Source: a virus
Length of the DNA: 64,000 nt
Strand: one strand, 5' to 3'
Virus record (IMG/VR): IMGVR_UViG_3300032287_003123
Location: 1-64,000 of that record
The stretch's first letter is position 1. The number at the start of each line of letters is the position of its first letter. A program made the translations under genes and the position numbers. Positions 12,976-33,512 of this stretch are shown here, in pieces. A model generated the notes under the pieces. The model saw nothing but the letters and a program-made list of their open reading frames with translations. It made no database searches and had not been told where the DNA came from.

Positions 12976-13672
12976 TTTTGGATCTTTATGGATTGGTAAT
13001 CCACTAAGCAAGGTAGAGCAAACTGCTTTATCATCAATAATTTATCACGGTCATTCCATTACCCTATTTGTTTATAATATGGATCTAAAAGTTCCAAAGG
13101 GTGTCGTAAAAGCAGACGCTAATCAATTTATACCTGAGTCTGATATTTTCAAGGTACAGAATTCTTACGGACCATTTGCAGACATTTTTAGATACAAGAT
13201 GATAAAAGAACTAGGACTGATATGGACAGATACAGACTCAATATGCTTAAGATCTGATTGGGATTTTGGAGACTACATATTTGGTTTTGAAGAACCTGGA
13301 AGGCTGTCAAACAGTATTCTTGGAATGCCAAAGGATTCTGATCTTATTGACATGATGCTGCTGGGGGCTAATAAACAGGACAAAGATAAGATAATTTGGT
13401 CTGAAATTGGACCAGACTTACTTACAAAGGCAACAAAAAAACTTAATTTGACAAAGCATGCACAGCAGCCAGAAGTTTTCTACCCAATACATTTCTGGCA
13501 ATGGAAGAAGATTTGGCTTAAGGATTATGCTAAAGAGGTAGTTAATACATGTCAAAATGCACATACATTGCAGGTTTGGAATCAATTTTTAAATAGAGAA
13601 GGAATTGACAAGAACAAGTTACCTAAAGGATCAGCAATAGAGTATTATCATAATAAATTTGTTATTGATTAA
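12965..13672 (+). CDS. GT32-like sugar transferase with DxD motif
   Basis: 235 residues. FADIFRYKMIKELGLIWTDTD contains the A-D-x-x-R helix and D-T-D metal motif of the Gly_transf_sug (GT32-type) family; the N-terminal SLWIGNPLS strand fits as well. Ends convergently with the next gene (11-nt overlap). Likely transfers a sugar to a virion or envelope glycan. Confidence 0.82.
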   Translation: MMINFGSLWIGNPLSKVEQTALSSIIYHGHSITLFVYNMDLKVPKGVVKADANQFIPESDIFKVQNSYGPFADIFRYKMIKELGLIWTDTDSICLRSDWDFGDYIFGFEEPGRLSNSILGMPKDSDLIDMMLLGANKQDKDKIIWSEIGPDLLTKATKKLNLTKHAQQPEVFYPIHFWQWKKIWLKDYAKEVVNTCQNAHTLQVWNQFLNREGIDKNKLPKGSAIEYYHNKFVID

Positions 13673-15170
13673 ATATGTGTGACATGTTTATGTATTCTCC
13701 TGATTGAATAGTAGAATCCATTTCGTAAATATCACATATATTATTTAGACCGTACCTAATAGAGTAACCACTTAATTTTTCGTTATAAAATAACCAGTGA
13801 TCAATCGGTCCATTAACTGGTTCTTGAACTTGCTTTAATAACTTTTCTACACCATTTTTGCTCACTATGTAACACAAGCAAGACCAAGACTGATATACCT
13901 TTGTAATATTTTGTTTTCCAACATCAAGAAGTTTTTTTTGTGTTTTTGCTCTACGATTCCCATAAGAGGGAATATATACTGTAAAAAAGTCCCAGTTATC
14001 TGGAAGTTCAGAAATATAACCAGATAGTTTTTGGTTAAAGTCTTTATCTAGAACTATGTCATCTTCCATAAGCATAAGCATTTCACGTCCAGACTTTGCA
14101 AAATTTTTCCATGCTGAATAATTGCTTGCCCATATTCCAAGTTCACCAAATCTCCATCCACGTTTTTCCCAGCCAAGTGGATCAATTTTAATTGCTTCAC
14201 CATTAAAAAAATTCTTTACATCTTCTTCGTTTTTGATTATGATTGTTGGAGTTTCAATCTTGTCAAAGTTATCCAATAATTTGTCTGTTGCTCTTTGAAC
14301 AAGAATTGACCTTCTCTTTAGTGAATCTGTGTCTCCATTAACATGAAAAATATTAAATACTAGATCAATATTTCCTTGTTTCTTTCTTTGAAGTCCATTC
14401 TTAACATCAAAAAAACTTTCTTTGGGATATTTTTTTGCATTTTTTTCCCACCAAGAATCAATATTATTCTTAGATCTTTTATGAAATGATTGATGATCTA
14501 GATTAATTGCATTTTTTGTATCAACAAAATGAGTAAATATTGGCATTGAGTATGCTGTTCCAAGGTTATACAGTAAAACATCTGCTGGTTTATCCTTGTA
14601 CTTACCTACTGTAAACTCATACTTTCCGTCAATTAAAAATGTATTTACTATTTTTTCGGCATAAGATCTTTTAATTATATAGCATGCTGTTGACCATGCA
14701 TATGGATAAACATCCTTACGACTATACTTTTCTTTTTCATGCATATAAAACTTAACATTATTTTCTTTAATCATAACTAACTGAATAATGTCAGCATCCT
14801 TTGGCATATTTTCCATAAAATAATCCCAGTCCCATTGCCAATATTGGACAGTATCAAAGGTACAGTCATCTTCCATAATGATCCCATACTCTTCAGTGGA
14901 ATCTTCTATCCAGGTCTTTATGGCGGTTATATGGGAGGCTAAGCACCCTATCTCTGCTGGCCTTAGTTTGGGGTAGGCTCCATATACTATGCCTCTTAAA
15001 TCGTCTTTACGCCCATCTACAGCCTCTATTACCTTATAGTTGGTAACACCATACTTCATAAACTCTTTTTTAATGTTGTGAAGTCTTTTAGTTTGGTCTG
15101 GAAGATTAATTAAATAAACAGGGCCAAAGTTTTGCATTTTATTCATGTTTGCGTATCCATACTTGCTCAT
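13662..15170 (-). CDS. two-domain GT25-type glycosyltransferase fusion
   Basis: Up to 502 residues; ATGs at 15170, 15146 and 15137 all fit and no ribosome site decides. Domain 1 has VYLINLPDQTKRL, EIGCLASHITAIKTW and GIIMEDDCTF; domain 2 (about 270-500) repeats the pattern with FGELGIWASNYSAWKNF and LMLMEDDIVLD. Both carry the E-D-D metal motif of GT25 enzymes, so two linked transferase activities are likely. It overlaps the upstream methyltransferase gene. Confidence 0.85.
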   Translation of the reverse strand: MSKYGYANMNKMQNFGPVYLINLPDQTKRLHNIKKEFMKYGVTNYKVIEAVDGRKDDLRGIVYGAYPKLRPAEIGCLASHITAIKTWIEDSTEEYGIIMEDDCTFDTVQYWQWDWDYFMENMPKDADIIQLVMIKENNVKFYMHEKEKYSRKDVYPYAWSTACYIIKRSYAEKIVNTFLIDGKYEFTVGKYKDKPADVLLYNLGTAYSMPIFTHFVDTKNAINLDHQSFHKRSKNNIDSWWEKNAKKYPKESFFDVKNGLQRKKQGNIDLVFNIFHVNGDTDSLKRRSILVQRATDKLLDNFDKIETPTIIIKNEEDVKNFFNGEAIKIDPLGWEKRGWRFGELGIWASNYSAWKNFAKSGREMLMLMEDDIVLDKDFNQKLSGYISELPDNWDFFTVYIPSYGNRRAKTQKKLLDVGKQNITKVYQSWSCLCYIVSKNGVEKLLKQVQEPVNGPIDHWLFYNEKLSGYSIRYGLNNICDIYEMDSTIQSGEYINMSHIFNQ

Positions 15171-17743: not shown

Positions 17744-17820
17744 TATCTATCATGCTTTCCATGAACATAACCAACAATTATTCCACAAATAAAACCTATT
17801 ACAAGGTCAATTACTTCCAC
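17743..17820 (-). CDS. 25-residue membrane peptide
   Basis: GTG start 6 nt after GGAGG; VEVIDLVIGFICGIIVGYVH is one membrane helix with a basic tail. The stop overlaps the next ATG (TAATG) and the start lies within the 3' end of the carbamoyltransferase gene. Good ribosome site and coupling support it. Confidence 0.6.
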   Translation of the reverse strand: MEVIDLVIGFICGIIVGYVHGKHDR

Positions 17821-19366
17821 TGTTTTCCTCCTCATATTTTTTAAAAATTGTATTACCAATTATCATGTAATCTATTGGAGAACTATAAAATAAATCAATT
17901 GCATTTTCAGGATATCCAGCAATTGGTTTTTTATTAACATTTAAACTAGTATTTAAAATTATTGCACATCCCGTAATATTGTAGAACTCTTCTATTAGTT
18001 TTCTAAAATAGCCATCATCTTTTTCAACTGTTTGTACTCTGCAAGTATTATCAACATGTGTAATTGCAGGAAAATCATTTACAATAAAATTATTTGTGAA
18101 TAACATATAAGGATCTTTATTTTCAAACTCAAAATAATCTTTTATATTTTCAGACAAAACTGAAGCACCAAATGGTCTATAAAACTCTCTGTTTTTTACG
18201 GTGTTTATTATTTTTTTCCCATCTTTTATTCTGGGATCCATTAGTATAGAGCGGTTCCCCAATGCTCTTGGCCCAACTTCTCCATGTTCTTGATACCAAC
18301 CAACTATTTTACCTTCAGATAGTAACTGTGCAACCATTTTAATTGTTTCATCAGTGGGTTTGTCTTTTGGTGCAATATCATTTTGGCAGTAAGGAAAGTT
18401 TTCTAGTTTAAACTTTGGTAAATTATTTAACTGTCTTAAAAGTTCAATTGCTCCTAGGCTTGTTCCTTCATCACTTGAATGTGGAGCAACAATAAGGTTC
18501 TTAAACTTATTTAAAATTTTTGTGTTCCATACAACATTTTGAGCCACACCACCAGAATATGAAACAACATCATCGGTATCTGCGTATTCTAAAAATAAAT
18601 TAACTATTAAATCTCCAACTGCTTCATGAACCGTTCTAATCCAATCAAGTTTATTGTGTGCAGCAAGTAGCAGATCGCCTTTATGTTCAATCCATCTTTC
18701 AAAATTAAAAATCTGATTTACTTCATCAATTGAATATTCTTTTGTTTTGTTTAAAAAATCATTATCTACTTTTCCATAAGACTGCAGCCCCATAATTTTT
18801 CCAGCGTTATCATGAATATTATTAGAATTAACTCCAAGCATCGGTCCAATTTCACCCATAGTAAGACCAATAGATCCGTTTTCTATTCTTCCATACCGAA
18901 CAATTTTGTTGTTTTTAAATACAGTATAGGTTCTTCCTTGACCAACTCCATCAATAACTATTTTTGTTGATGGCAAATTATTTTCATCTTCTAGCATCCA
19001 AGTTGACATAGCATGAGCATAGTGATGATTTAAATGCCATAACTCTTTTACTCCATGAACCGCAAACATATTTGCATGGTCTGGAACTTTATAATAGTTT
19101 TTGTTATAATCTCTTAAGGCCTCAAACCCATCAGGCTCTTTACCACCATTAAACTTTGTGGCATCATAATCAATTGCTACTTGATCAATTTCTTTAATTT
19201 CAAAGTTAAATAATTTTTCAGCATCTTTTATGATTTCCCAAATTGTTTCATACCAAAAATGTTTTTCTTGTTTTGTTCTTTCAAATTTATGATAATATAG
19301 TTTTTCTCCATCAAAATAAGAAACATTGTTATCGTGATACATCAAACTAATACCCAATAACTTCAT
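17807..19366 (-). CDS. NodU/CmcH-type O-carbamoyltransferase
   Basis: 519 residues. The N-terminal domain opens with GISLMYHDNNVSYF and has LNHHYAHAMSTWM (metal and substrate histidines), IDGVGQGRTYTV and SGGVAQNVVWN; the C-terminal domain has GWYQEHGEVGPRALGNRSIL and FYRPFGASVL. This is the full two-domain layout. It uses carbamoyl phosphate and ATP to carbamoylate hydroxyls, usually on sugars. With nearby glycosyltransferases it suggests carbamoylated glycans. GGGGGA ribosome site. Confidence 0.92.
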   Translation of the reverse strand: MKLLGISLMYHDNNVSYFDGEKLYYHKFERTKQEKHFWYETIWEIIKDAEKLFNFEIKEIDQVAIDYDATKFNGGKEPDGFEALRDYNKNYYKVPDHANMFAVHGVKELWHLNHHYAHAMSTWMLEDENNLPSTKIVIDGVGQGRTYTVFKNNKIVRYGRIENGSIGLTMGEIGPMLGVNSNNIHDNAGKIMGLQSYGKVDNDFLNKTKEYSIDEVNQIFNFERWIEHKGDLLLAAHNKLDWIRTVHEAVGDLIVNLFLEYADTDDVVSYSGGVAQNVVWNTKILNKFKNLIVAPHSSDEGTSLGAIELLRQLNNLPKFKLENFPYCQNDIAPKDKPTDETIKMVAQLLSEGKIVGWYQEHGEVGPRALGNRSILMDPRIKDGKKIINTVKNREFYRPFGASVLSENIKDYFEFENKDPYMLFTNNFIVNDFPAITHVDNTCRVQTVEKDDGYFRKLIEEFYNITGCAIILNTSLNVNKKPIAGYPENAIDLFYSSPIDYMIIGNTIFKKYEEENSGSN

Positions 19367-20531: not shown

Positions 20532-21233
20532 TTATCCAAACTCATACATTCCTATGTGTTTTGCTACTGCGTATGGAGCCAAGTAAACTTTGCCCCCAGT
20601 TTTTATCCAGGACTTACAAAAATAATAATCTTCTGATAAAAGAGTGTTTGTTTCTTCATCAATTTCTAAACTAAAAAAGTTTTTTGTAGTTTTATCTTCA
20701 CTGTTTTTAAACATTAAAGAATTATTTGTATAAGTTTCTGCATCTATTATATCAAATACTTCTCTCTTTATCAGCATGTATCCCGTTCCAATTCCAGAAA
20801 CTTCCTGTACTTCATTGTTGTCAAAAAAATCATTGTTATTTTTTTGTGTAAAGACATAATTAAATCCATTTTTATGAAAATTAGAGTCTCCATTAAGCAC
20901 GGAAGACCTAATCTTAATCCAATCAATCTTTTTTAAAGGATATAAACCACCAATAATATCTCTATCTTCTTTTACTAATCTTATAACGTCTTTTGCATTA
21001 AAATAAATATCTGCATCAATAAAAAGTAAATGAGTTGAATCTGATTCTAAAAATAATTTTGTAAGGTCATTTCTTGCACGATTAATTAGTGATTCATTAT
21101 ATATAAAAGCAGTTGAAAGACCCCATCCTTCTTTTTCAATCTCTTGCTTTAGTGCTAATATTGCTTTTGTGTATTCTCCACTGCACATGCCTCCATACAT
21201 GGGGGTTGCTAAGAATATGCTTGGTGTTTTCAC
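20532..21233 (-). CDS. GT-A glycosyltransferase
   Basis: 233 residues from a GTG that overlaps the preceding TGA. PSIFLATPMYGGMCSGEY, NRARNDLTKLFLES, LLFIDADIYF (metal motif) and GGLYPLKK are typical of phage GT-A transferases of the MNN9/Anp1-like type. GIGTGYMLIKREVFD and LSEDYYFCKSW complete the acceptor side. Confidence 0.85.
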   Translation of the reverse strand: MKTPSIFLATPMYGGMCSGEYTKAILALKQEIEKEGWGLSTAFIYNESLINRARNDLTKLFLESDSTHLLFIDADIYFNAKDVIRLVKEDRDIIGGLYPLKKIDWIKIRSSVLNGDSNFHKNGFNYVFTQKNNNDFFDNNEVQEVSGIGTGYMLIKREVFDIIDAETYTNNSLMFKNSEDKTTKNFFSLEIDEETNTLLSEDYYFCKSWIKTGGKVYLAPYAVAKHIGMYEFG

Positions 21234-22186: not shown

Positions 22187-22254
22187 ATATCCAGTATACC
22201 AAATAGGGCATAAAAGTCAAGCCGAAAATAGGTTTTTAAGTTCGGCGACGTATA

Positions 22255-22267
22255 GAGGTTTTAAACC
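22255..22267. promoter_or_regulatory. AGGTTT-T-AAACCT palindrome
   Basis: Exact inverted repeat of the AGGTTT half-site that recurs in promoter spacers at 22.9-24.3 kb, located just after the leftward gene at 22271. Candidate operator. Confidence 0.5.
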
Positions 22268-22270
22268 TTA

Positions 22271-22528
22271 CTAAGCCCTATAAGGGCTATATCGGTTAAT
22301 AGCCTGGTTTGCTGCCAATTCTGCATCTTCTTCTGTGTGGGTATATCCAAATGTTATAACCTTAAACCCATTATATAAAGTCCATTTCCAAGGAATCGTG
22401 GGAAGAAAAAACTTATCCTGATTCTTAACAGGCTTACCATTAGATTTAACAGGAGGTTTATATTCCTCAATAACTATCTTAAGTGTCAAACCAATATCCC
22501 AACATGAGTAGGCCAATAGTATAAACAC
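22271..22528 (-). CDS. short conserved protein, start uncertain
   Basis: At most 85 residues from a GTG inside the upstream gene; a TTG near 22492 giving MTLKIVIEEYKPPV is equally likely. IPWKWTLYNGFKVITFGYT and DAELAANQAINRYSPY resemble a small beta-alpha domain. A hairpin GCCGAA...TTCGGC at 22207-22232 follows. Confidence 0.6.
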   Translation of the reverse strand: MFILLAYSCWDIGLTLKIVIEEYKPPVKSNGKPVKNQDKFFLPTIPWKWTLYNGFKVITFGYTHTEEDAELAANQAINRYSPYRA

Positions 22529-22959
22529 CTATCGCAACAAGGTTTGGCAACACTATTCCTATACTCTGCATAGTAAAGCGGATCTTTGCGATATAGGTTA
22601 GCCTTATGGCTATCAAGAACTCTCTTCAACTGTTCTTGGTTTTGCATCCAAAAGGGAGTATTGTTACCCCAATCTGATGAGAATCTAATTTCTAAGTCTT
22701 TGAGGTTTGCAACATTCTTGTCGGTCTTGATGCCACGAAAGTTTGCTTCGTAAACCATATGGTCAATATAACTCTTTAGTTCATACTCACAGCCTTTCCA
22801 CATAAGAACTGCTGGATGGTTTCGCCAAGCACCAGACTCAGATGCGCCAGATAGAATCTTAAGGATTTGATAGCCTTCTAGAATCTGCTTGTTAAGGCGC
22901 TTATTGTCTAGGGTTTGGGCAGTGTATTCGTAATCTGCTGAAGGTAGAAAGGTTTGCAT
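22486..22959 (-). CDS. pyrimidine-dimer-glycosylase-like protein, leaderless
   Basis: 157 residues. MQTFLPSADYEYTAQTLDNKRLNKQ, WRNHPAVLMWKG and the helix arrangement match the MSMEG_6728 / Pyr_excise-type family related to T4 endonuclease V. It would excise UV-damaged pyrimidines, useful for a phage in sunlit water. C-terminal KPCCDRC adds a possible metal site. GATAAT 6 nt before the ATG, TTGACT 17 bp farther. Confidence 0.78.
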   Translation of the reverse strand: MQTFLPSADYEYTAQTLDNKRLNKQILEGYQILKILSGASESGAWRNHPAVLMWKGCEYELKSYIDHMVYEANFRGIKTDKNVANLKDLEIRFSSDWGNNTPFWMQNQEQLKRVLDSHKANLYRKDPLYYAEYRNSVAKPCCDRCLYYWPTHVGILV

Positions 22960-22965
22960 ATATCT

Positions 22966-22994
22966 ATTATCTCAAGGTTTGCAGATAAAGTCAA
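22966..22994 (-). promoter_or_regulatory. promoter TTGACT-17-GATAAT with AAACCTT in spacer
   Basis: -35 at 22989-22994, -10 at 22966-22971, six nt to the ATG at 22959. The spacer carries CAAACCTT. Confidence 0.75.
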
Positions 22995-22999
22995 GTTTT

Positions 23000-23230
23000 T
23001 TATAAATGTATTTTATTGACAGGTTCTTTAGACCAATGTATATAAGATTTAATATACACTGCTGCATAGGCAATTGCTGCAAAGATAAAGCCATATTGCT
23101 TAGTGGTTACAGCATAGATAATCCATAGGAACTCGTTGAACAATAACAATAGCCATCCCCAGATGGTCTTACGACCAACAAAGAATATGCCTGTTACACC
23201 GATTGCTGCTAATATATATGACCACCACAT
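23000..23230 (-). CDS. small multi-pass membrane protein, leaderless
   Basis: 76 residues with three helices: WWSYILAAIGVTGIFFVG, WGWLLLLFNEFLWIIYAV and FIFAAIAYAAVYIKSYIHW. Recalls half of a PnuC-type transporter and similar actinophage proteins. The TATCAT box is 6 nt before the ATG. Confidence 0.75.
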   Translation of the reverse strand: MWWSYILAAIGVTGIFFVGRKTIWGWLLLLFNEFLWIIYAVTTKQYGFIFAAIAYAAVYIKSYIHWSKEPVNKIHL

Positions 23231-23236
23231 ATATCC

Positions 23237-23272
23237 ATGATACCAGGTTTTGGCGGGGAAGTCAAGTATAAT
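23237..23272. promoter_or_regulatory. face-to-face divergent promoters
   Basis: Leftward: TTGACT (23260-23265), 17 bp, TATCAT (23237-23242). Rightward: TATAAT (23267-23272), six nt before ATG 23279. The leftward -35 and rightward -10 are 1 bp apart, so polymerase cannot hold both. Confidence 0.7.
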
Positions 23273-23278
23273 GAATCC

Positions 23279-23599
23279 ATGGCAATCCTATATCTAATAT
23301 ATAACCCTATATTTAAAGCCTTCAAGATAGGTGTAGGAGATTTGTCTGGAAGTAGATACTCAGAGCATAGGCGTAAGGGATGGGTTCTGGTCAAGTATTG
23401 GTATTTCTCAGATAGATCAAAAGCCTTCAAGGTGGAGAAGATGGTTTTACAAACCCTAAAGAAGAGGTTTATGTCTGGTTTTGTATCCAAAGAAAATATG
23501 CCACAGGGAGGGTTTAGCGAAACCTTTGATGCTTCTCAAACCTCATCTACTAAGATTATTAGAACAATAAACAGGGCGATCAAAAATTCGGGGAACTAA
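23279..23599 (+). CDS. GIY-YIG / T5orf172-like protein, leaderless
   Basis: 106 residues from ATG 23279. AILYLIYNPIFKAFKIGVGD matches the first two strands of GIY-YIG-type nucleases (Y-L-I ... K-I-G), followed by basic helices and RRKGWVLVKYWYFSDR. Conserved Arg and Glu candidates are Arg in SRYSEHRRK and Glu in VEKMVL. Endonuclease activity is likely but unproven. Confidence 0.7.
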   Translation: MAILYLIYNPIFKAFKIGVGDLSGSRYSEHRRKGWVLVKYWYFSDRSKAFKVEKMVLQTLKKRFMSGFVSKENMPQGGFSETFDASQTSSTKIIRTINRAIKNSGN

Positions 23600-23623
23600 A
23601 AGGATGCTTCGTAATCCCTATAG

Positions 23624-23791
23624 TCATGAATCCATCTCTACAACACCCTTAGTATCCAGACATAGTTTGCATATCTCAAAGAACATAGTTCCAGAAGAAT
23701 CTATTCTATAGTCATAATCACATTCGTGTGGGGTTTTTCTCATATCGTTGAAACGCTTCCAAGGGTCTTGCATGAAGTCATCTATGTCCAT
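23624..23791 (-). CDS. short conserved protein, leaderless
   Basis: 55 residues from the ATG that follows TATACT (23798-23803) by 6 nt; an in-frame TTG at 23815 overlaps the promoter. DDFMQDPWKRFNDMRKTPHE and CKLCLDTKG (CxxC). Unknown. Confidence 0.68.
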   Translation of the reverse strand: MDIDDFMQDPWKRFNDMRKTPHECDYDYRIDSSGTMFFEICKLCLDTKGVVEMDS

Positions 23792-24026
23792 GTATCCAGT
23801 ATATCGTATGGACAAAGGTTTGATATACCCCCCAAATATAGTACCAAATGTCTGGTTTGATACTAGATATGGTGGTTTGATAGCAAATTAAATGTTACTG
23901 ATATTTTTATGATTTATCCCAAAGTGGAGGAAAGTGGAGCATAGTGGGTTATTGAGCATTTCTAAGAAGGGCGTTCGTAATGTCTTGGGGGCCCCAAACC
24001 TCATATCCCCAAACCTTCCTAGCGGG

Positions 24027-24055
24027 ATTATACTCCAAACCTTCCTATTTGTCAA
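24027..24055 (-). promoter_or_regulatory. perfect promoter, AAGGTTTG in spacer
   Basis: TTGACA (24050-24055), 17 bp, TATAAT (24027-24032). AAGGTTTG is at spacer positions 7-14. Confidence 0.82.
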
Positions 24056-24077
24056 ACCTTATATGCATGGTTTGGGC

Positions 24078-24106
24078 ATTATATAACAAACCTTTATAGT
24101 TGTCAA
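24078..24106 (-). promoter_or_regulatory. second perfect promoter, AAGGTTTG in spacer
   Basis: TTGACA (24101-24106), 17 bp, TATAAT (24078-24083); AAGGTTTG again at spacer positions 7-14. Tandem with the promoter 51 bp downstream. Confidence 0.82.
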
Positions 24107-24268
24107 GCCCATTTTATGCATAAAAAAATCCTACAAAAATGCAGAAAAATGTAGGAAAATCCAGCAAAAAGGTTTGAAAGGTTTGGAAAATATCCAGAAA
24201 ACCAGGAAAAAAGGTTTGTTATTCTAATGGGGTTTATTACTATAGGGATTGGGATCTATTCTAAAAGT

Positions 24269-24397
24269 CCCGTGATTTTTTCTGAAGGGTTCGTAAAGGG
24301 TTATTGACAGAAATGGTTTGATGTGGTATGATCCCCGTGAATTTTTGCGAGGGGTTCGTAAAGTCCCGTGATTTTTTTTAGAGGGTTCGTAAAGGGC
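24269..24397. repeat. three CCCGTGAnTTTTT...GGGTTCGTAAAG hairpin repeats
   Basis: Copies start at 24269, 24333 and 24365. Each has CCC(C)GTGA, a T-run, G(A/G)GGG and TTCGTAAAG; the C and G arms pair. Single CCCGTGA boxes also occur upstream of promoters at 27574, 29924 and 33436. Confidence 0.65.
24304..24332 (+). promoter_or_regulatory. promoter TTGACA-17-TATGAT without rightward gene
   Basis: TTGACA (24304-24309), 17-bp spacer with ATGGTTTG, TATGAT (24327-24332). Start near 24339, so the RNA would begin in the second hairpin repeat and run antisense to the gene at 24444. Confidence 0.75.
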
Positions 24398-24443
24398 GTT
24401 TTAAGAATTTTCGACAATTGAAAAAAACGGAAAGCAGCCTAGT

Positions 24444-24692
24444 CTATGCTAGTGCTGCTAACCATTTGTCCATAGTTTTTGTATCTGGATCTATGTCTAA
24501 TAGGATATTGAGTGCTTCCCAAGCGGTATTGATGATAGCCTTACCATGAGAGGTAGCCTTAGCCTCACCCTTCAATATAAAACCACATAACTCACATTCG
24601 TTTTGGAAGTCTTTGAAGAACTCTTCAGGTACAAAATCTACTGCACCATGATATAGAGAACTCATTATCTTTACTTTATTATTGAAGTCCAT
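24444..24692 (-). CDS. hypothetical protein
   Basis: 82 residues, helical: SLYHGAVDFVPEEFFKDFQN, CELCGFILKGEAK (CxxC), TAWEALNILLDIDPDTK. Overlaps the upstream gene by 14 nt. Unknown. Confidence 0.65.
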   Translation of the reverse strand: MDFNNKVKIMSSLYHGAVDFVPEEFFKDFQNECELCGFILKGEAKATSHGKAIINTAWEALNILLDIDPDTKTMDKWLAALA

Positions 24693-24912
24693 CTCTCCAC
24701 CTCTGCCTCATTACATTTGGGTCAAGCACTGCTTCTCTTTCATATTGCATTGCCTCTAGTATAGCCTCTAGTCGTGTGTAAGTCAATTGTGGCAGTACCC
24801 TCGCCAACATGACTCCAGTAGTTTCAAGGTCAAGGTTTAGGTCTTCTACAATAGTTTTAATTCTCATTGCTACCCGTTCTTCGGGTGATGTCCCAGTCCG
24901 TAGTCTTCTCAT
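24679..24912 (-). CDS. helical protein of unknown function
   Basis: 77 residues: RTGTSPEERVAMRIKTIVED, LETTGVMLARVLPQLTYTRL, EAMQYEREAVLDPNVMRQRW. All-helical, possibly DNA-binding. AAGGGAG ribosome site. Confidence 0.68.
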   Translation of the reverse strand: MRRLRTGTSPEERVAMRIKTIVEDLNLDLETTGVMLARVLPQLTYTRLEAILEAMQYEREAVLDPNVMRQRWRDGLQ

Positions 24913-25004: not shown

Positions 25005-25367
25005 CTACCCTATCACTTGCTCAGTCAAGACTCGTGGGGCATATGCATTAATGAATGCCTCCCAATCTACCGACACATTATCAATAACAGTCTTAGTAGT
25101 GAAGTCAACAATCACTGTTTGCTCACCTAGGTCAAAGTTATCTCCGTGGACCGCATAGATACCAAACCCTGTTTCATCAAGGATGTTATGTTGAATAAGA
25201 TAACTGATCACCATACGTGTGCCATACGATGAGTCATCCCAGCGTCTACGTGCATGCTGCAGCGCCTCTGCAATGTCAGGCTGCCATGAATCCTGGCCCC
25301 AGTGTGAGTAGAGTACTACAGATGAATCGGTACCGTCTTTAAATACAAAGTTAATCCGTGCTCCCAT
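25005..25367 (-). CDS. conserved hypothetical protein
   Basis: 120 residues. GARINFVFKDGTDSSVVLYS, HWGQDSWQPDIAEALQHARR and YLIQHNILDETGFGIYAV form an alpha/beta domain I recall from actinophage small proteins without function. Starts at the stop of the upstream gene (TAATG). Confidence 0.7.
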   Translation of the reverse strand: MGARINFVFKDGTDSSVVLYSHWGQDSWQPDIAEALQHARRRWDDSSYGTRMVISYLIQHNILDETGFGIYAVHGDNFDLGEQTVIVDFTTKTVIDNVSVDWEAFINAYAPRVLTEQVIG

Positions 25368-27577: not shown

Positions 27578-27683
27578 GTCCCGTGAATTTTTTACTAAAG
27601 ACCTTAATCATAAATAGTCCTCAGAAATATCATGATTTTTTCGACCCGCATTTTTATGCATTGCATTGCATTTTTATTTATTG

Positions 27684-27757
27684 CGATCCGTACGGGACTT
27701 GAACCCGTGACCTCTACCGTGACAGGGTAGCGAACTAACCAACTATTCTAACGGACC
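27684..27757 (-). tRNA. tRNA-Asp (GTC)
   Basis: Acceptor GGTCCGT pairs with ACGGATC, anticodon loop CTGTCAC, T-loop GGTTCAAGTCC. Lies between the DUF932 gene and the next leftward unit, likely in the DUF932 transcript. Confidence 0.92.
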
Positions 27758-27763
27758 AAATGG

Positions 27764-27786
27764 TGAGCAGTTTTAATTCATGCTCA
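27764..27786 (-). repeat. 3' stem-loop element, copy near DUF932
   Basis: TGAGCA/TGCTCA stem with GTTTTA in the loop, 10 nt after the DUF932 stop. Confidence 0.65.
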
Positions 27787-27796
27787 GGAAATTGTA

Positions 27797-28813
27797 TCAT
27801 GCTAGTTGCATAACATTCTGCACAACTTTTAGCAGACGATTTTTTTCTGCGTTGATAGCAGGGTCAAATCCACTTGCACTTGCAAGGATAGATTCGTTAT
27901 TGCCACCACGAGCAGAACGGTACCAGTCTAGGCGCTCAGTAAGTGCATTGAAAGCGCCCCATGCAGAGCCAGCAATCATGCCGTTAAATTCGCCAGTGTA
28001 AATATCGTTGATAATATCAACTTTATTTTCCCACTTCTTGACCGCACCCTTAGCGTCCTTCTCAGGCTTAGGATAAGCAGCAAGAATGATGTCGTTGAAT
28101 TGCTTAGCAGAAACTTCTTTCTCAATCATAGCCTTAGCCATAATATCAAATTCGTCCATGTAAGTATTAGCAAGACCAAGAGTCTCACGAGCAATCTGCA
28201 CTTTACCATTGGCAGTCTGCGTGTGGCGAATCTTGAATGATTGCTTGACACCATTCTTCTTCTTGCGTGAGCCTAGTGCAAGATTAAGAGTGTTAGCGCA
28301 CACTACACGAACGGGTGTAATGCTTGCTTGAATAGCGATTGAGCCATCGTGTGATGTGTTGATGAGCAAATAAGTCTTTACCTTATCTGCAACACCGCTA
28401 GGGTCTAGGATTGTTTCACGCTCTAATGCAAGAGAGCCGAATACAACACGACCACCCTTGATTGCGCCTGCGGTTTCCCAACGACCACCGCCGTCTAGGA
28501 TATTATCACCGAATGAGAATAAATCTTCATTCTGCAATACATGATAGCGCTCACCAACGACACCAAGAATATCAGTCTGGGTGTTATCGGTAGGATTTGT
28601 ACGCAAAACATATTGGTATGCCTTGTCGCTAGTTAGATGTGATGGGGTTTCCAAATCCTCTAAGCGAACATTCCAACCGTTTAGATTTGCTGCTTCCAAC
28701 ATTTCTGCGGTTGTTTTTTCCTCAGTGAATACGGTACCCAATCCATGCCATGCTGGTTCACGGAAAGATGCAAAAGATGTCTTACCGTTTTGTGTTTCTA
28801 GGTCATGTGCCAT
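27797..28813 (-). CDS. DUF932 phage/plasmid-like protein
   Basis: 338 residues. FREPAWHGLGTVF, YQYVLRTNPTD, LLINTSHDGSIAIQASITPV and RVVCANTLNLAL are the signature of DUF932 (TIGR03299-type). Widespread in phages and plasmids; biochemical role unknown, often near replication or recombination genes. AAGGAG ribosome site. G+C looks higher than in flanking genes. It follows the cassette promoter at 28844. Confidence 0.9.
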   Translation of the reverse strand: MAHDLETQNGKTSFASFREPAWHGLGTVFTEEKTTAEMLEAANLNGWNVRLEDLETPSHLTSDKAYQYVLRTNPTDNTQTDILGVVGERYHVLQNEDLFSFGDNILDGGGRWETAGAIKGGRVVFGSLALERETILDPSGVADKVKTYLLINTSHDGSIAIQASITPVRVVCANTLNLALGSRKKKNGVKQSFKIRHTQTANGKVQIARETLGLANTYMDEFDIMAKAMIEKEVSAKQFNDIILAAYPKPEKDAKGAVKKWENKVDIINDIYTGEFNGMIAGSAWGAFNALTERLDWYRSARGGNNESILASASGFDPAINAEKNRLLKVVQNVMQLA

Positions 28814-28843
28814 GAGTGTTTCTCCTTTTTGTTTGTTTATACA

Positions 28844-28872
28844 ATCATAACATGACCCACCGACAAATGCAA
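28844..28872 (-). promoter_or_regulatory. promoter TTGCAT-17-TATGAT
   Basis: -35 at 28867-28872, spacer TTGTCGG variant of the TGTCAG motif, -10 at 28844-28849. Confidence 0.78.
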
Positions 28873-28913
28873 ATCAGGATAGTTAAATAGGGGTAAATCG
28901 GACATTTTGGGGG

Positions 28914-28929
28914 TGTGATCAATATCACG
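28914..28929. promoter_or_regulatory. CRP-like palindrome
   Basis: TGTGA-TCAATA-TCACG, centred 84.5 bp upstream of the predicted start of the DUF932 promoter. Confidence 0.6.
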
Positions 28930-28975
28930 TAATCGTAACTTGACAATGACTGGTCATTCGGGTCGAAAAATTTAT

Positions 28976-28998
28976 TAAGCCTTTTTCCATCATGCTTA
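28976..28998 (-). repeat. 3' stem-loop element (variant)
   Basis: TTAAGC/GCTTA variant of the TGAGCA...TGCTCA element, next to a GGGTCGAAAAATTT box. Confidence 0.5.
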
Positions 28999-29078
28999 GG
29001 ATGTATGGGTTCTTACACCTGCCCAATAAGGTGGCTCTATAGTATTTCTATTATCGCCCTAATCAGCCTGGCGAAAAG

Positions 29079-29103
29079 TGAGCAGTTTACGTGGCCGTGC
29101 TCA
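29079..29103 (-). repeat. 3' stem-loop element
   Basis: TGAGCA-GTTTAC...TGCTCA, about 57 nt after the stop of the gene at 29160. Confidence 0.6.
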
Positions 29104-29139
29104 GGGCCCTTACCTAGTTTATAGACATTCGGCATGTCT

Positions 29140-29159
29140 TTTCATAGCCCCCTATGAAA
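29140..29159 (-). terminator. hairpin directly after stop codon
   Basis: TTTCATAG pairs with CTATGAAA over 8 bp with a C4 loop, touching the stop of the gene at 29160. No T-run, so termination is uncertain. Confidence 0.5.
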
Positions 29160-29579
29160 TTAGTAGTCAACCTCGTCATAGTTAGTATCTACAACGTTTG
29201 AATCTTCATTCATGAGTTCAACGTGATATGAATTTACATTGAATTCAATTGTTGACAATATGTCATCAATGTCTTCACCTGATTCAACACATATGGTAAA
29301 TGTATGGTCTACGGTCATAGTAACGTCATAGTTTTGTGATAACGTGAAGTCGCCAATCTTTGCAAGCGCTTGGGCCTGCTCCATGGAGATATTCTCTTCA
29401 TTAAGTTCACTGCGGGTCCAGTCCTTTAGATCTTCCTTAAGTCTATTAAGTGCTGCTGCAGTGTTCATGTCCCGCTGTGCAAGACGTGCATGTGATTCTT
29501 CTAGTTGAGTAATACGCAATGTGGCCTTGGCCAATTCATCACGTAGAAATGTCTCTGTTGCGTAGTTTACTGTATCCAT
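29160..29579 (-). CDS. coiled-coil protein with beta-rich tail
   Basis: 139 residues. Coiled coil about 10-75 (FLRDELAKATLRITQLEESH), then strands (VTMTVDHTFTICVESGED). Short proteins like this are frequent in actinophage early regions. Starts 5 nt after the upstream stop. Unknown. Confidence 0.7.
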   Translation of the reverse strand: MDTVNYATETFLRDELAKATLRITQLEESHARLAQRDMNTAAALNRLKEDLKDWTRSELNEENISMEQAQALAKIGDFTLSQNYDVTMTVDHTFTICVESGEDIDDILSTIEFNVNSYHVELMNEDSNVVDTNYDEVDY

Positions 29580-29584
29580 AGGGG

Positions 29585-29848
29585 TTATTCCATTTCTTTC
29601 TCTAGTTGTTCAAATTCTTTGATGGTATTAATCATCTCATCCATTTGGTCTTTTGTCAAGCACACATTTGATACTAGTGTGGCAGTAAGTGAGGCAAGGT
29701 GAGCAGAATAACTCCAAATTGCCTCAATGAATTCTTGTTCTGTCATTGATTCACGATGTTCGCTAATCTTTTTTGCCATTAGCATTGTGCTGAAGTCTGT
29801 AACTGCGTCGCCAGTTGCTTCTTGAATTTGTATTGCGGTGGATAGCAT
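29585..29848 (-). CDS. helical protein of unknown function
   Basis: 87 residues, all helix (MAKKISEHRESMTEQEFIEA; IWSYSAHLASLTATLVSNV). First gene behind the cassette promoter at 29878. Confidence 0.68.
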   Translation of the reverse strand: MLSTAIQIQEATGDAVTDFSTMLMAKKISEHRESMTEQEFIEAIWSYSAHLASLTATLVSNVCLTKDQMDEMINTIKEFEQLEKEME

Positions 29849-29877
29849 GAGGGCCTCTTTCTTTTTGGTTTAATATA

Positions 29878-29906
29878 AGTATATATCTCAGGACTGACAA
29901 ATGCAA
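29878..29906 (-). promoter_or_regulatory. promoter TTGCAT-17-TATACT with TTGTCAG
   Basis: -35 at 29901-29906, spacer TTGTCAG..., -10 at 29878-29883. Confidence 0.8.
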
Positions 29907-29945
29907 TTTAAAACCCCGTGAATCTTAAATAGTGAGACGTAAACC

Positions 29946-29961
29946 ATGTGAGAAAGATCAC
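29946..29961. promoter_or_regulatory. CRP-like palindrome
   Basis: TGTGA-GAAAGA-TCACA, centred at -82.5 of promoter 29878 and abutting GGGTCGAAAAATTTTT. Confidence 0.62.
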
Positions 29962-29991
29962 ACGGGTCGAAAAATTTTTGCGGGGAATTTA

Positions 29992-30015
29992 TAGAGCAGT
30001 TTTACATCATGCTCA
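29992..30015 (-). repeat. 3' stem-loop element
   Basis: GAGCA-GTTTTACATCA-TGCTC, 11 nt after the stop of the gene at 30026. Confidence 0.65.
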
Positions 30016-30025
30016 GGATGTTTAA

Positions 30026-30196
30026 TTACTTAGATGTTTTTACCATTGCAAAGCGGTGTGCGCCGTTTGCTAACTGTAATGAAACTCTAGTTAGTTTAGC
30101 GTTGATAGGAGTAAAGTTGCTAATGCGACCTGTAATTCCTGTCTTGCTTGTTGTGAATAGATCACCGATTTGGTAAGTGTATCCGCCTAGTGTCAT
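30026..30196 (-). CDS. small SH3-like protein
   Basis: 56 residues, basic, beta-rich: YTYQIGDLFTTSKTGITGRI and LTRVSLQLANGAHRFAMVK. Paralog of the protein at 30846 (shared G-D-x-x-T, K-x-I-T-G, R-V-x-L, N-G, R). It may bind nucleic acid. No promoter of its own is evident. Confidence 0.7.
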   Translation of the reverse strand: MTLGGYTYQIGDLFTTSKTGITGRISNFTPINAKLTRVSLQLANGAHRFAMVKTSK

Positions 30197-30234
30197 TTTG
30201 GGTCTTGCCTTTCTGTTGTGGTGGTTAAAGTTGG

Positions 30235-30259
30235 TGAGCAGTTTTAGTTGTCATACTCA
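30235..30259 (-). repeat. 3' stem-loop element (imperfect)
   Basis: TGAGCA-GTTTTA...TACTCA, 21 nt after the stop of the gene at 30280. Confidence 0.55.
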
Positions 30260-30279
30260 GGACATTTCCCCGTTGGGAA

Positions 30280-30705
30280 TTATAGGTATCGTGCTACCGC
30301 ATTGTATGTGGAAGTATTAACTACTTCCTCATCTGTCATCTTGAGGATACGAATTGCGTTAGCAATTTCCTCTTTCTGACTTTGGTAGTCGTGTGAGTGT
30401 AGAACTACATAGTCTTTTGTTGGCTCTGCTGGCAGTTCCTTTTCTGATACTGCTAGGTCAAAGTCAATGTTTAGGTTGTTGTTCCAAGAACGATATGAAG
30501 TGCGGAAGTTGGTTGCCTTCTTGATGTTTGCTACCGCATAGTCAATAAGTTCCTTCTTATACTTCTCATAAGCCTTCTGATACTTTGCTTCATTGGCTTC
30601 TTGTGATGTCCAATCAAGTTCTAGTTTGGCAAGTGCGCCTTCTAGTGCCTTGATTACTTTAGGTGTAGCGATTTTAACGCTAATTGCTTTTCCTCTTGTT
30701 GCCAT
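30280..30705 (-). CDS. hypothetical protein
   Basis: 141 residues from the ATG after an AAAGAGAG ribosome site; an upstream ATG at 30762 precedes the promoter. Basic N-terminus (MATRGKAISVKIATPKVIK), coiled helix with KYQKAYEKYKKELIDYAV, strand LNIDFDLAVSEKELP and VVLHSHDYQSQKEEI. Common in actinophages, unknown role. Confidence 0.72.
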   Translation of the reverse strand: MATRGKAISVKIATPKVIKALEGALAKLELDWTSQEANEAKYQKAYEKYKKELIDYAVANIKKATNFRTSYRSWNNNLNIDFDLAVSEKELPAEPTKDYVVLHSHDYQSQKEEIANAIRILKMTDEEVVNTSTYNAVARYL

Positions 30706-30739
30706 TTTTTTGCTCTCTTTTCTTTGGTGGTTGATATTT

Positions 30740-30768
30740 ATTATAGGGGGTGGAACTGACATTTCCCC
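30740..30768 (-). promoter_or_regulatory. promoter with TATAAT and TGTCAG spacer, weak -35
   Basis: -10 TATAAT (30740-30745), spacer begins ATGTCAG, -35 position GGGGAA. A CCCCCG-AA-GGGGGG hairpin (about 30765-30778) covers the -35, and no CRP-like site is found upstream. Confidence 0.6.
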
Positions 30769-30845
30769 CGAAGGGGGGAGAGTTCTTACTTACGACATTG
30801 GGCTAGAACACTCTCCTAAACTGCCCCTGTTTCGCTATGAAAGGC

Positions 30846-31007
30846 TTATGCCTTCCAAGTAGTCCAGCGTGGTGAGCCATTTACATCTAACTTGACACGA
30901 ACTGTGTTCTTGTTAGTTGGCACAATTTCTACGATAGTGCCTGTAATCTTAGACTTCTGTGAAGTATAAGTGTCGCCTACCTTGTATGTTGCTACGCCTA
31001 CTGTCAT
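30846..31007 (-). CDS. small SH3-like protein, paralog of 30026
   Basis: 53 residues: VATYKVGDTYTSQKSKITGT, TVRVKLDVNGSPRWTTWKA. Same fold plan as 30026. GGAGAAACAA ribosome site; promoter 31038. Confidence 0.72.
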   Translation of the reverse strand: MTVGVATYKVGDTYTSQKSKITGTIVEIVPTNKNTVRVKLDVNGSPRWTTWKA

Positions 31008-31037
31008 TTGTTTCTCCTTTGTTTGGTTGATATATTA

Positions 31038-31066
31038 AGTCTAGCATTTTCTACTGACATTTACAA
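31038..31066 (-). promoter_or_regulatory. promoter TTGTAA-17-TAGACT with TGTCAG
   Basis: -35 at 31061-31066, spacer ATGTCAG..., -10 at 31038-31043. Confidence 0.76.
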
Positions 31067-31107
31067 CATTTTTCCCTAAAAATCTCATATATTGAGATAT
31101 ATTGGGG

Positions 31108-31123
31108 TGTGATTTACATCACC
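31108..31123. promoter_or_regulatory. CRP-like palindrome
   Basis: TGTGA-TTTACA-TCACC, centred at -84.5 of promoter 31038. A second inverted repeat ATCTCA...TGAGAT lies at 31082-31098. Confidence 0.58.
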
Positions 31124-31184
31124 TTCCGCCTGCCACCATCAGAATTGCCCCTACTATGGCTAAAATGATTATTAGATTATTCAT
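31119..31184 (-). CDS. 21-residue membrane peptide
   Basis: MNNLIIILAIVGAILMVAGG is a single hydrophobic helix with an Arg end. GGGG four nt before the ATG, 8 nt after the GP88-like stop. The stop overlaps the CRP-like site. Translation is uncertain. Confidence 0.45.
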   Translation of the reverse strand: MNNLIIILAIVGAILMVAGGR

Positions 31185-31192
31185 TTATCCCC

Positions 31193-31915
31193 TCACTTTT
31201 TGGTTGCGCTAAACACTATATCAGATTTCTCATAAATACACAACTTGCAGGTGGCGCAGGCTGAGCCTTTCTGAGAGATAAGGGGGATAGCCTTTTTATT
31301 TTCAGGGCACTTAGCACCAGGCTTACCTGTTAGTGCCTTCATGTCTGCTTGCCCTATTAAGAAATTTTTGGCAAGGTATGCAAGGGATACGCCATGATTA
31401 TTCTTGAGATCAATTCCCGTATCCTTATTCTCACTGTCTGTAGAATAGTATAAAGATAGATTAGGAATGTCTTTAAGAATGAGCGCTGCAGATTTAACTC
31501 TTGTGTATACCCAGAATTGAATATCAGGATACTTATCCATAACTACCTTCCACGCATATGCGTAGGTATCGTTAAAGAAATCGCCGTCCCAGTGGATACG
31601 AAATAACTTAGGTGCATTGCGCTTATCACAATCTGCATTAAATTCATGAATCATTTCATTAAGTAGACGGACCATTGTTTCTCCGTCTGCGTCTTTAAGT
31701 AGTTCCCAGTTATGAAGTAGGTTAACCTTTACTGTTGGGAATACCTTTTCCAACTTGCCTGCGTAGCAAATAGTTTCGCAGATAGACGTTGCACCAGGAC
31801 ATGAAAAGTTTTTTCCTGCGGGTAATCCGAATGTGTTTGCGATACTTGCTTGTTTTCCATTTGGGGTGACGGCATTGGCGACTTTCCTATCTTTGCTTCT
31901 AAGTAATTTGGACAT
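31193..31915 (-). CDS. GP88-like protein with Cys clusters
   Basis: 240 residues. FSCPGATSICETICYAGK, FRIHWDGDFFNDTYAYAW, FWVYTRVKSA and a C-terminal CPENKK ... CATCKLC match the mycobacteriophage gene-product-88 family as I recall it. The Cys pattern suggests metal or iron-sulfur binding; the mechanism is unknown. Own promoter at 31948 inside the upstream gene. Confidence 0.78.
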   Translation of the reverse strand: MSKLLRSKDRKVANAVTPNGKQASIANTFGLPAGKNFSCPGATSICETICYAGKLEKVFPTVKVNLLHNWELLKDADGETMVRLLNEMIHEFNADCDKRNAPKLFRIHWDGDFFNDTYAYAWKVVMDKYPDIQFWVYTRVKSAALILKDIPNLSLYYSTDSENKDTGIDLKNNHGVSLAYLAKNFLIGQADMKALTGKPGAKCPENKKAIPLISQKGSACATCKLCIYEKSDIVFSATKK

Positions 31916-31921
31916 GGTGGA

Positions 31922-32068
31922 TTACTCACTTTCTTTTTCTCTTTCTAATCTTAACATTAGGGACTGACATTTCTTTCGGTTGTATTTCTTTTTATTTGGG
32001 ATCGCTGAGGCAGCATTAGAACGACGAAGTTCCATAAGTCTACGTAATTCCTCAGATGTTTTTTTCAT
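31922..32068 (-). CDS. short basic protein, leaderless
   Basis: 48 residues, very basic (EELRRLMELRRSNAASAIP; KKKYNRKKCQS). TAGTAT is 5 nt before the ATG with TTGTAT 17 bp farther. Its 3' part contains the promoter for the GP88-like gene. Confidence 0.6.
   Translation of the reverse strand: MKKTSEELRRLMELRRSNAASAIPNKKKYNRKKCQSLMLRLEREKESE
31948..31976 (-). promoter_or_regulatory. promoter with TAAGAT and TGTCAG spacer
   Basis: -10 TAAGAT (31948-31953), spacer ATGTCAGTCC..., weak -35 (AAAGAA). Confidence 0.6.
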
Positions 32069-32073
32069 ACTTA

Positions 32074-32102
32074 ATACTATCAGATTTAGGGGAAAAATAC
32101 AA
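32074..32102 (-). promoter_or_regulatory. promoter TTGTAT-17-TAGTAT
   Basis: -35 at 32097-32102, -10 at 32074-32079. Lacks the TGTCAG motif and has no CRP-like site, though a GCGGGTCGAAAATTTT box lies at 32137-32152. Confidence 0.65.
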
Positions 32103-32149
32103 GTCTACGTAAAACGGACATTGCGGACAAAAGGGGCGGGTCGAAAATT

Positions 32150-32392
32150 TTATTCGTCTAAATCTACATACACATATAAATCAACATATGCATCGTGTGC
32201 AAGTATTAGCGTATCACGTTCACCATATGTATCAGTGTATTCAATAAAATAATTATCGCCAGTTGAATCAGAATTAATTTCAATAACTTCAAGTAATTCT
32301 TCATCAACCTTTATTAGATCATCAACCATCAATGACCCTGGCGTTAATTTATCTGCCCAGACTAGTTCCATGTTGTTTATTGTAGCAGTCAT
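32150..32392 (-). CDS. small beta-rich acidic protein
   Basis: 80 residues from the ATG 1 nt after the upstream stop. MELVWADKLTPGSLMVDD and ELLEVIEINSDSTGDNYFIE read as an SH3-like or Hint-like beta barrel. Unknown. Confidence 0.65.
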   Translation of the reverse strand: MTATINNMELVWADKLTPGSLMVDDLIKVDEELLEVIEINSDSTGDNYFIEYTDTYGERDTLILAHDAYVDLYVYVDLDE

Positions 32393-32393
32393 T

Positions 32394-32732
32394 TTAGTAC
32401 CCCTCATCATATTCTAGTGAGAGTGGGAAGTCATCTGAGTCATCTTGCCAGTCATCTACTGGGTCAATGAAAGTGTGAAGGTGGTGCTGGTCTACAATAG
32501 CGTGTGCAGGTGCTTGCGTTGAGCCACGATATAGAATCTGAAAGTCACCAACCTTTGGCATATCAATCATGCGGTCATAGTCCTCATCATAGTATGCGTC
32601 AATAGCCTCAATGCATGGTGCCACCATTTCTGCGGGTACTGGAGGATAGTGATTACCCTTCAAGTGATATAGAATCTGAGTCTCCAAGTCCAAGACTGTA
32701 TCTTTAATTCCTAGTGCTGTTACGCTTCCCAT
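32394..32732 (-). CDS. conserved hypothetical protein
   Basis: 112 residues, acidic: LETQILYHLKGNHYPPVPAE, CIEAIDAYYDEDYDRMID, GDFQILYRGSTQAPAHAIVD. The NHYPPVP and helix blocks are familiar from actinophage small proteins. Unknown. Confidence 0.7.
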   Translation of the reverse strand: MGSVTALGIKDTVLDLETQILYHLKGNHYPPVPAEMVAPCIEAIDAYYDEDYDRMIDMPKVGDFQILYRGSTQAPAHAIVDQHHLHTFIDPVDDWQDDSDDFPLSLEYDEGY

Positions 32733-32734
32733 TA

Positions 32735-32875
32735 TTATTTCTCCTCAATTTCTGCGACATATACATCGCCTCTTTCAATGTTTCCATATTTTAATTTAAA
32801 ATCAAAATTTTCAATTGCTTCATCATAGTTATCTGCTTCAACATTTATGAAAGTAGTAAATTCATATACTGGCAT
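32735..32875 (-). CDS. short acidic protein, MPVYEF type
   Basis: 46 residues: MPVYEFTTFINVEADNYDEA and RGDVYVAEIEEK. Same strand-helix-strand plan as 26561. TAATG coupling upstream. Confidence 0.65.
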   Translation of the reverse strand: MPVYEFTTFINVEADNYDEAIENFDFKLKYGNIERGDVYVAEIEEK

Positions 32876-33093
32876 TATGCTCTTACCTGAACCCTTCCAT
32901 CACGATAGAATACCTTAGTGTAACACTTACCTGTTGGTGTGTAGATATTGACTGTTGAGTATTCGTTAGCCAATCCCCAATCGGTAAAACGGAAAAAACT
33001 TTCCCATGCACCGAATTCATTTTCATAGCGTTGTGACCAATGAGGTGATTCCTCATAGTCATACTGGCAAGTTACTAGGTATTCATATTCCAT
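32875..33093 (-). CDS. aromatic-rich short protein
   Basis: 72 residues: YEYLVTCQYDYEESPHWSQR, WESFFRFTDWGLANEYSTV and CYTKVFYRDGRVQVRA. Coupled on both sides. Unknown. Confidence 0.66.
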   Translation of the reverse strand: MEYEYLVTCQYDYEESPHWSQRYENEFGAWESFFRFTDWGLANEYSTVNIYTPTGKCYTKVFYRDGRVQVRA

Positions 33094-33197
33094 TAGTTAT
33101 AGGTTCCTTTACATTCTGAGCAGAGATAATTAATTTTGCAGTAGCAACCTACGGCAGTAGGCATATCAGTTTCATAGTAGTCATCATAGTAGGTCAT
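33093..33197 (-). CDS. 34-residue Tyr/Cys-rich protein
   Basis: MTYYDDYYETDMPTAVGCYC and YLCSECKGTYN give two Cys pairs, likely one zinc. TAATG at both ends. Confidence 0.62.
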   Translation of the reverse strand: MTYYDDYYETDMPTAVGCYCKINYLCSECKGTYN

Positions 33198-33343
33198 TAG
33201 TTAGCCTCTTTCGTTAAGAATAGTTGGTCAATATAAGCATATTCTATCATCGCTTCTACCTCTCGGTCAAGGTAGCAACGGAAGCAATAGAGTTCAGTTA
33301 CATCTACTGCATTTTCATTACACTGCAAGCATACATCGGTCAT
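33197..33343 (-). CDS. short zinc-ribbon protein
   Basis: 48 residues with CLQCNENAVD and YCFRCYLDREVE knuckles plus a helix. First gene of the operon 33343-32150 behind promoter 33379. Confidence 0.68.
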   Translation of the reverse strand: MTDVCLQCNENAVDVTELYCFRCYLDREVEAMIEYAYIDQLFLTKEAN

Positions 33344-33378
33344 GGGAGCCTTCTTTCTTTAATTAACTTGATATAAAT

Positions 33379-33407
33379 ATCTTATCAGGTTGGGGTGACA
33401 TTTGCAA
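33379..33407 (-). promoter_or_regulatory. promoter TTGCAA-17-TAAGAT
   Basis: -35 at 33402-33407, spacer ATGTCAC..., -10 at 33379-33384. Confidence 0.78.
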
Positions 33408-33438
33408 TTCCGTAATCGGGCAATTTGGACAAGGTTCC

Positions 33439-33454
33439 CGTGATTAATATCACA
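33439..33454. promoter_or_regulatory. CRP-like palindrome plus nearby DnaA-like box
   Basis: CGTGA-TTAATA-TCACA, centred at -74.5 of promoter 33379. A TGTGGATAA (TTATCCACA on the other strand) follows at 33467-33475. Confidence 0.6.
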
Positions 33455-33487
33455 TCGTACGTAACTTGTGGATAACCTGTGGACGAC

Positions 33488-33508
33488 ACGCCCGACTGCG
33501 GGTCGAAA
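33488..33508. repeat. 21-bp duplicated box, also at 34876
   Basis: CGACACGCCCGACTGCGGGT and the following CGAAAA occur here and near 34876-34900 with the same sequence; CCCG...CGGG can pair. The right end is the GGGTCGAAAA box. Confidence 0.65.
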
Positions 33509-33512
33509 ATTT

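Follow-up and report, generated by a model that had tools for sequence, protein, structure and literature searches.

Promoter-linked origins and operator arrays

At the primary origin of T7 and at oriF and oriG of T4, the promoter or promoters are located directly upstream of an AT-rich region; the T7 promoters are tandem and served by T7 RNA polymerase, and the T4 promoters are MotA-dependent. Iteron plasmid origins of the RK2, P1 and pSC101 type combine helically phased direct repeats with an AT-rich stretch and DnaA boxes. In lambda, the operator-bearing promoter PR transcribes into an origin in which repeated initiator sites lie beside an AT-rich region; this transcription is required for origin opening, and the lambda repressors control replication (PMC5043065). 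The operators and stoperators of cluster A mycobacteriophages are short asymmetric words of 13 bp, which occur genome-wide in many copies, including in promoters, with an orientation bias (PMC9283540).

The locus described here lies in a stretch of 64,000 nucleotides (the window) that belongs to a 65,146-b virus record in IMG/VR. Its features are listed below, mostly in the direction of transcription.

25005..25367, minus strand: gene for a 120-aa protein (phrog_31860), constant upstream neighbour
24679..24912, minus strand: gene for a 77-aa helical protein, constant upstream neighbour and candidate partner
24259..24396, plus strand: three degenerate repeats TCCCGTGATTTTTT..GGGTTCGTAAAG, akin to TTACGA words (repeat family D1)
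24170..24218, plus strand: upstream AGGTTTG copies of opposite orientation (24170, 24179, 24212)
24120..24172, no strand: A/T-tracts in helical phase that precede the promoters and probably bend the DNA
24078..24106, minus strand: perfect promoter 1, TTGACA-17-TATAAT, with AAGGTTTG at spacer positions 7-14
24027..24055, minus strand: second perfect promoter, lying 51 bp further downstream; its spacer also carries AAGGTTTG at positions 7-14, and a GGTTTG overlaps its -35
23995..24059, minus strand: array of AGGTTTG copies within and after the promoters (23995, 24010, 24036, 24053)
23975..23981, minus strand: ATTACGA word between array and decamers
23920..23949, minus strand: CTCCACTT-type decamers in a 10-bp register, putative initiator sites; a single site in the genome (23924-23939)
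23886..23919, minus strand: AT-rich stretch containing ATCAGTAACATTTA, where the DNA may unwind
23816..23879, plus strand: more GGTTTG copies beyond the AT-rich stretch (23816, 23854, 23874)
23237..23265, minus strand: peripheral promoter of leaderless type serving the PnuC-like gene, with AAAACCT in its spacer
22966..22994, minus strand: peripheral promoter of leaderless type serving the pyrimidine-dimer glycosylase gene, with CAAACCTT in its spacer

The element itself is plain from the sequence, and the arrangement of its parts suggests its function: we consider it to be probably a phage replication origin that is controlled via its own promoter and opened by transcription as in lambda. As in T7 and T4, promoters precede an AT-rich region, and those of the window are tandem as in T7, but they are of the sigma-70 type and are accompanied by repeat arrays and, in most relatives, by DnaA boxes. 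The likeness to lambda lies in an operator-bearing promoter directed into repeated putative initiator sites beside an AT-rich region; unlike in lambda, these sites are decamers and not 19-bp iterons, the promoter directly adjoins the putative origin, most copies have DnaA boxes, and no O- or P-like gene was identified. Iteron plasmid origins share the phased direct repeats, the AT-rich stretch and the DnaA boxes, whereas here there are only two or three decamers, with a perfect promoter and an 8-bp array in addition, and no Rep protein was found. Like the cluster A stoperators, AGGTTTG is short, asymmetric, multi-copy, present in promoters and biased in orientation, but it has 7-8 bp instead of 13 bp and is clustered at essentially one locus, and no lysogeny genes were seen. 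A literature search returned no report of the AGGTTTG motif or of such an element.

AGGTTTG copies and promoters in the window

The window has 28 copies of AGGTTTG. Dinucleotide shuffles lead one to expect 11.55 +/- 3.15, and 0 of 100 shuffles reach 28. The excess is real and not compositional, which removes the explanation that the initial annotation had itself named as the one that could undo its proposal. Half of the copies (14/28) lie within the 2.2 kb at 22200-24400, and the remaining 14 are scattered across 61.8 kb at about the expected density; the interval 23995-24220, thought to hold about eight, holds exactly eight. Promoter-like sites as a class are not enriched in the window (42 versus 37.5 +/- 6.5 expected).

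The individual sites named by the initial annotation are in place. The tandem promoters (24106-24078 and 24055-24027) score 12/12 each, and their spacers are ACTATAAAGGTTTGTTA and AATAGGAAGGTTTGGAG. The promoters at 22966 (TTGACT, spacer TTATCTGCAAACCTTGA, GATAAT) and 23237 (TTGACT, spacer TCCCCGCCAAAACCTGG, TATCAT) contain their expected words at a score of 10/12 each. The plus-strand promoter at 24304 (TTGACA, spacer GAAATGGTTTGATGTGG, TATGAT) holds ATGGTTTG, though at spacer positions 4-11, and the odd palindrome AGGTTT-T-AAACCT, annotated at 22255, spans 22256-22268. These four motifs (22255, 22966, 23237 and 24304) are peripheral to the element.

Single TTGACA..AGGTTTG..TATAAT sites that are unrelated to each other are numerous in IMG/VR, and one such match by itself says little; the case for AGGTTTG rests instead on clustering and on conservation in relatives. 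Such isolated matches, common in a large collection, are what chance or base composition could produce, but this explanation is refuted by the density of GGTTTG/CAAACC (12.9 per kb over 75 elements versus 0.6 in shuffles) and by conservation over more than 100 contigs, and its probability is negligible.

Separately, the word GTCGAAAA, mostly as (C)GGGTCGAAAAWTTT, occurs in nine copies in the window (24408 and 27638-35875) versus 0.2 expected from a third-order Markov model; it is absent or nearly so in the relatives G013, G017 and G018, and is possibly a second regulatory word.

Conservation of the element in related phages

Relatives were first found via the neighbouring pyrimidine-dimer glycosylase gene, upstream of which AGGTTTG forms one dense cluster with a fixed block order. 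A pattern made from the most conserved block, CTCCACTTYMCTCCAC-N16..40-TCAGTAASATTT (the core), matches at least 119 IMG/VR viral contigs at one site per genome, the two matches in G019 overlapping at the same site. GTDB genomes, searched for host copies and oriC mimicry, have 0 matches to either of two element patterns. The dense cluster is also essentially one locus per genome, with a second, smaller cluster in G013. As the core was chosen as the search pattern, its conservation is built into the element counts; the statistics for the promoter, spacer word, array, ATTACGA and DnaA boxes are independent of this choice. The comparison covers 93 elements that are distinct over about 250 bases, with a median identity of about 65% and some close relatives among them. 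Motif-poor relatives proved partly invalid as negative controls, since G009 carries the element at its contig edge, and they were left out of the evidence.

The order of blocks is constant: CAAACC and ATTACGA words, T-tracts, promoter, array, ATTACG, decamers, AT-rich stretch and, in 67/93 elements, DnaA boxes. In the upstream zone, CAAACC occurs 440 times in the main orientation versus 92 in the other, the bias also seen in the window, and ATTACGA occurs 268 times on one strand versus 0 on the other. The following T-tracts are phased at 10 bp; the zone that corresponds to the A/T-tracts of the window is autocorrelated at both 10 and 20 bp. A perfect sigma-70 promoter is present in 80/93 elements, versus 0 and 1 in control stretches, and the second tandem copy is also near-perfect in L014, L083, L099 and L102. 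Among promoters matching at 11/12 or better (n=87), all spacers measure 17 bp, and in 64 of them GGTTT occupies positions 7-9; many others have either AAACC at the start of the spacer, which gives a CAAACC that overlaps the -35, or CAAACC-AT-GGTTTTG dyads.

The array after the promoter, which occupies the first ~100 bp transcribed, is G/T-rich, with much G and little C (34% and 9%), and its direct copies are spaced mainly by 8, 15-17, 23 and 31-34 bp. The 8-bp periodicity (z 22 versus shuffles, 93 elements) persists with GGTTTG masked, as GATATG, GATAGG and similar words occupy other steps. ATTACG follows at -70 to -20 of the core in 91/93 elements, in this orientation only, and then two or three CTCCACTT decamers in a 10-bp register in 93/93. 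The AT-rich stretch, with ATCAGTAA, has 76% A+T across relatives. Perfect DnaA boxes just past it are found in 67/93 elements versus 0/85 in a control stretch, and their orientation is uniform (128 versus 0), all being TGTGGATAA in the promoter direction. No perfect box lies beside the core in 26/93 elements, including those of the window, G013 and G017; the window's element is complete in all other respects. GGTTTG copies beyond the AT-rich stretch are also biased in orientation (129 versus 14).

Open reading frames across the element (families 4 and 17) were rejected as coding, since promoter-to-core distances represent all three values modulo 3. This spread indicates a non-coding element and, together with the lack of a selected RNA fold, a DNA element. 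A short non-coding RNA, possibly Rho-ended at the C-rich, G-poor decamer zone, would suit the strong promoter and a transcript that is G-rich and then C-rich and G-poor. Against it, no consensus structure was found, folding is no better than that of local shuffles (mean z +0.33), and Rfam gives nothing above threshold and only a sub-threshold plant miRNA match; moreover, the decamers, DnaA boxes and T-tracts are features of DNA. Such an RNA is thus a most improbable explanation.

The divergent G012 keeps the decamers and is devoid of the AGGTTTG array; of the parts of the element, the decamers would thus seem to be better conserved. In its locus (L256), a GGGCAAAATATGCC-like repeat replaces the array around the CTCCACTT core. 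In other divergent relatives (L208, L213 and L233), GGATCGTAAT repeats take the place of the decamers after a promoter whose spacer contains AGGTTTG. Among isolated phages, the window region has no nucleotide match, and the element of a relative gives weak matches, those in the Lactococcus 949 group falling on DnaA-box repeats.

AGGTTTG as a possible control site

The initial annotation proposed a second regulon under a repressor acting inside the spacer. A factor that binds there and affects the promoter is plausible, because AGGTTTG is clustered, fixed in the spacer of the strongest promoter and conserved in dozens of viruses; a lysogeny-type repressor is unlikely, because neither a tyrosine integrase nor a serine recombinase was found in 10 genomes. 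Of the two binding proteins suggested, the zinc-finger candidate at 21230 is not a zinc finger: its reading frame (20532-21233) matches phrog_1574 and, weakly, the Anp1 glycosyltransferase family. The helix-turn-helix candidate at 39264 (39264-39458) gives weak HNH/HTH matches only.

Leaderless promoters of the form TTGACTTCCCCCGC..TTTGATATAAT, with ATG a few bases past the -10, are common in these phages; those at 22966 and 23237 are examples. The full AGGTTTG word occurs in 8 of 148 unique promoters of this type (0.6 expected), all 148 coming from element-bearing loci and some of the 8 being homologous copies. The sites at 22966 and 23237 are thus at most a weak extension, and there is room for a small regulon acting via leaderless promoters. 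A dispersed regulon is not supported by these counts or by the confinement of the dense cluster. The locus is similar in form to stoperator-type regulation, but its sites are not dispersed, no repressor was identified and the 10 genomes gave no sign of a temperate life style.

The element might be a transcriptional control hub only, that is, a strong early promoter with many asymmetric operators for one phage regulator and no role in replication. The position of AGGTTTG, within the spacer of the strongest promoter and across its -35, is consistent with this, as is its low but above-chance frequency in leaderless promoters. However, a hub leaves the decamers, the AT-rich stretch and the DnaA boxes unexplained; the cluster is essentially limited to one locus, and there is no sign of lysogeny, given the lack of integrase and serine recombinase. 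We regard this possibility as rather unlikely. Under the origin reading, AGGTTTG in the spacer would be a control site on the origin promoter; the spacer-bound factor of the initial annotation is kept and its meaning is changed.

A probable transcription-opened replication origin

The phased repeats, the adjoining AT-rich stretch, the co-oriented DnaA boxes of most elements, the probably bent DNA and a promoter reading in are parts expected of an origin, and the 76% A+T region beside two or three phased CTCCACTT decamers is the arrangement of a theta-type origin. GC skew has no change attributable to the element.

From this arrangement we infer transcriptional opening, a possible R-loop and an initiator bound to the decamers. 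Host RNA polymerase would start at the promoter, cross the array and approach the decamers, and this transcription would open the AT-rich region via supercoiling, or via an RNA-DNA hybrid whose formation the G-rich non-template strand would favour. A putative phage initiator on the decamers, together with host DnaA where boxes exist, would load the phage DnaB-type helicase. A putative protein on AGGTTTG would cover the spacer and the -35 and thereby set the timing of origin firing. In a more speculative form, which we put forward as an unlikely but specific extension, the 8-bp G/T array would be bound stepwise by a phage protein, and in its bound state would both gate transcription and keep the opened, R-looped strand stable, making this a new type of origin with an embedded perfect host promoter.

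Another DnaA-box locus about 9-12 kb away (about 35.8 kb in the window) might be the origin, the element then being an accessory site or a second origin. That locus has paired perfect boxes in the window, G013, G017 and G018, and this weighs most where the element itself has no perfect boxes (the window, G013 and G017). It has, however, neither decamers nor an AGGTTTG array, and its conservation was examined in four genomes; we find this account improbable. In the window, the region 35650-36100 is non-coding, lies between diverging gene blocks and has two perfect DnaA boxes, both surrounded by repeated sequence that resembles GTGATGTAGGTCATGTGGATAACT.

A site for packaging, recombination or partition would also be single-copy, non-coding and rich in repeats. 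Such a site needs neither a conserved perfect promoter nor DnaA boxes, and no ParB (PF02195), integrase or resolvase family was found in 10 genomes, which makes this alternative very unlikely.

Carrier phages and their hosts

The element is carried by phages of ~100-112 kb; three contigs of 104-112 kb with end repeats look complete. WhiB, an actinophage marker (PMC10202952), is encoded by 12/12 genomes tested, indicating that the hosts are Actinomycetota. G018, one of the three complete-looking contigs, encodes a DnaB-like helicase, a primase, a DNA polymerase, a UvsX-like recombinase and a RuvC-like resolvase; a DnaA gene was not found in 10 genomes. Also, the window has genes for a tryptophan halogenase (8887-10455), a Nol-like carbamoyltransferase (17807-19366) and a glucosyltransferase (13662-15170).

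Small genes upstream of the element recur in loci with enough flank: that for the 77-aa protein in 62/62, that for the 120-aa protein in 58/62 and a further one in 63/66. The 77-aa protein is predicted to be all-helical (AlphaFold pLDDT 84.7), and its fold has no PDB match and no credible BFVD match. Its gene is present in 11/14 contigs tested; it is absent from G009 and G020, where the element lies at the contig edge, and from G012, which has the divergent, array-less form.

The element is common to more than 100 uncultured actinophages, and provides a testable candidate origin and a marker of the group. It is also well suited to the question of how a phage couples promoter control to the start of replication. 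If the reading of a stepwise-bound array is true, promoter control would be tied to origin firing across a widespread group of actinophages.
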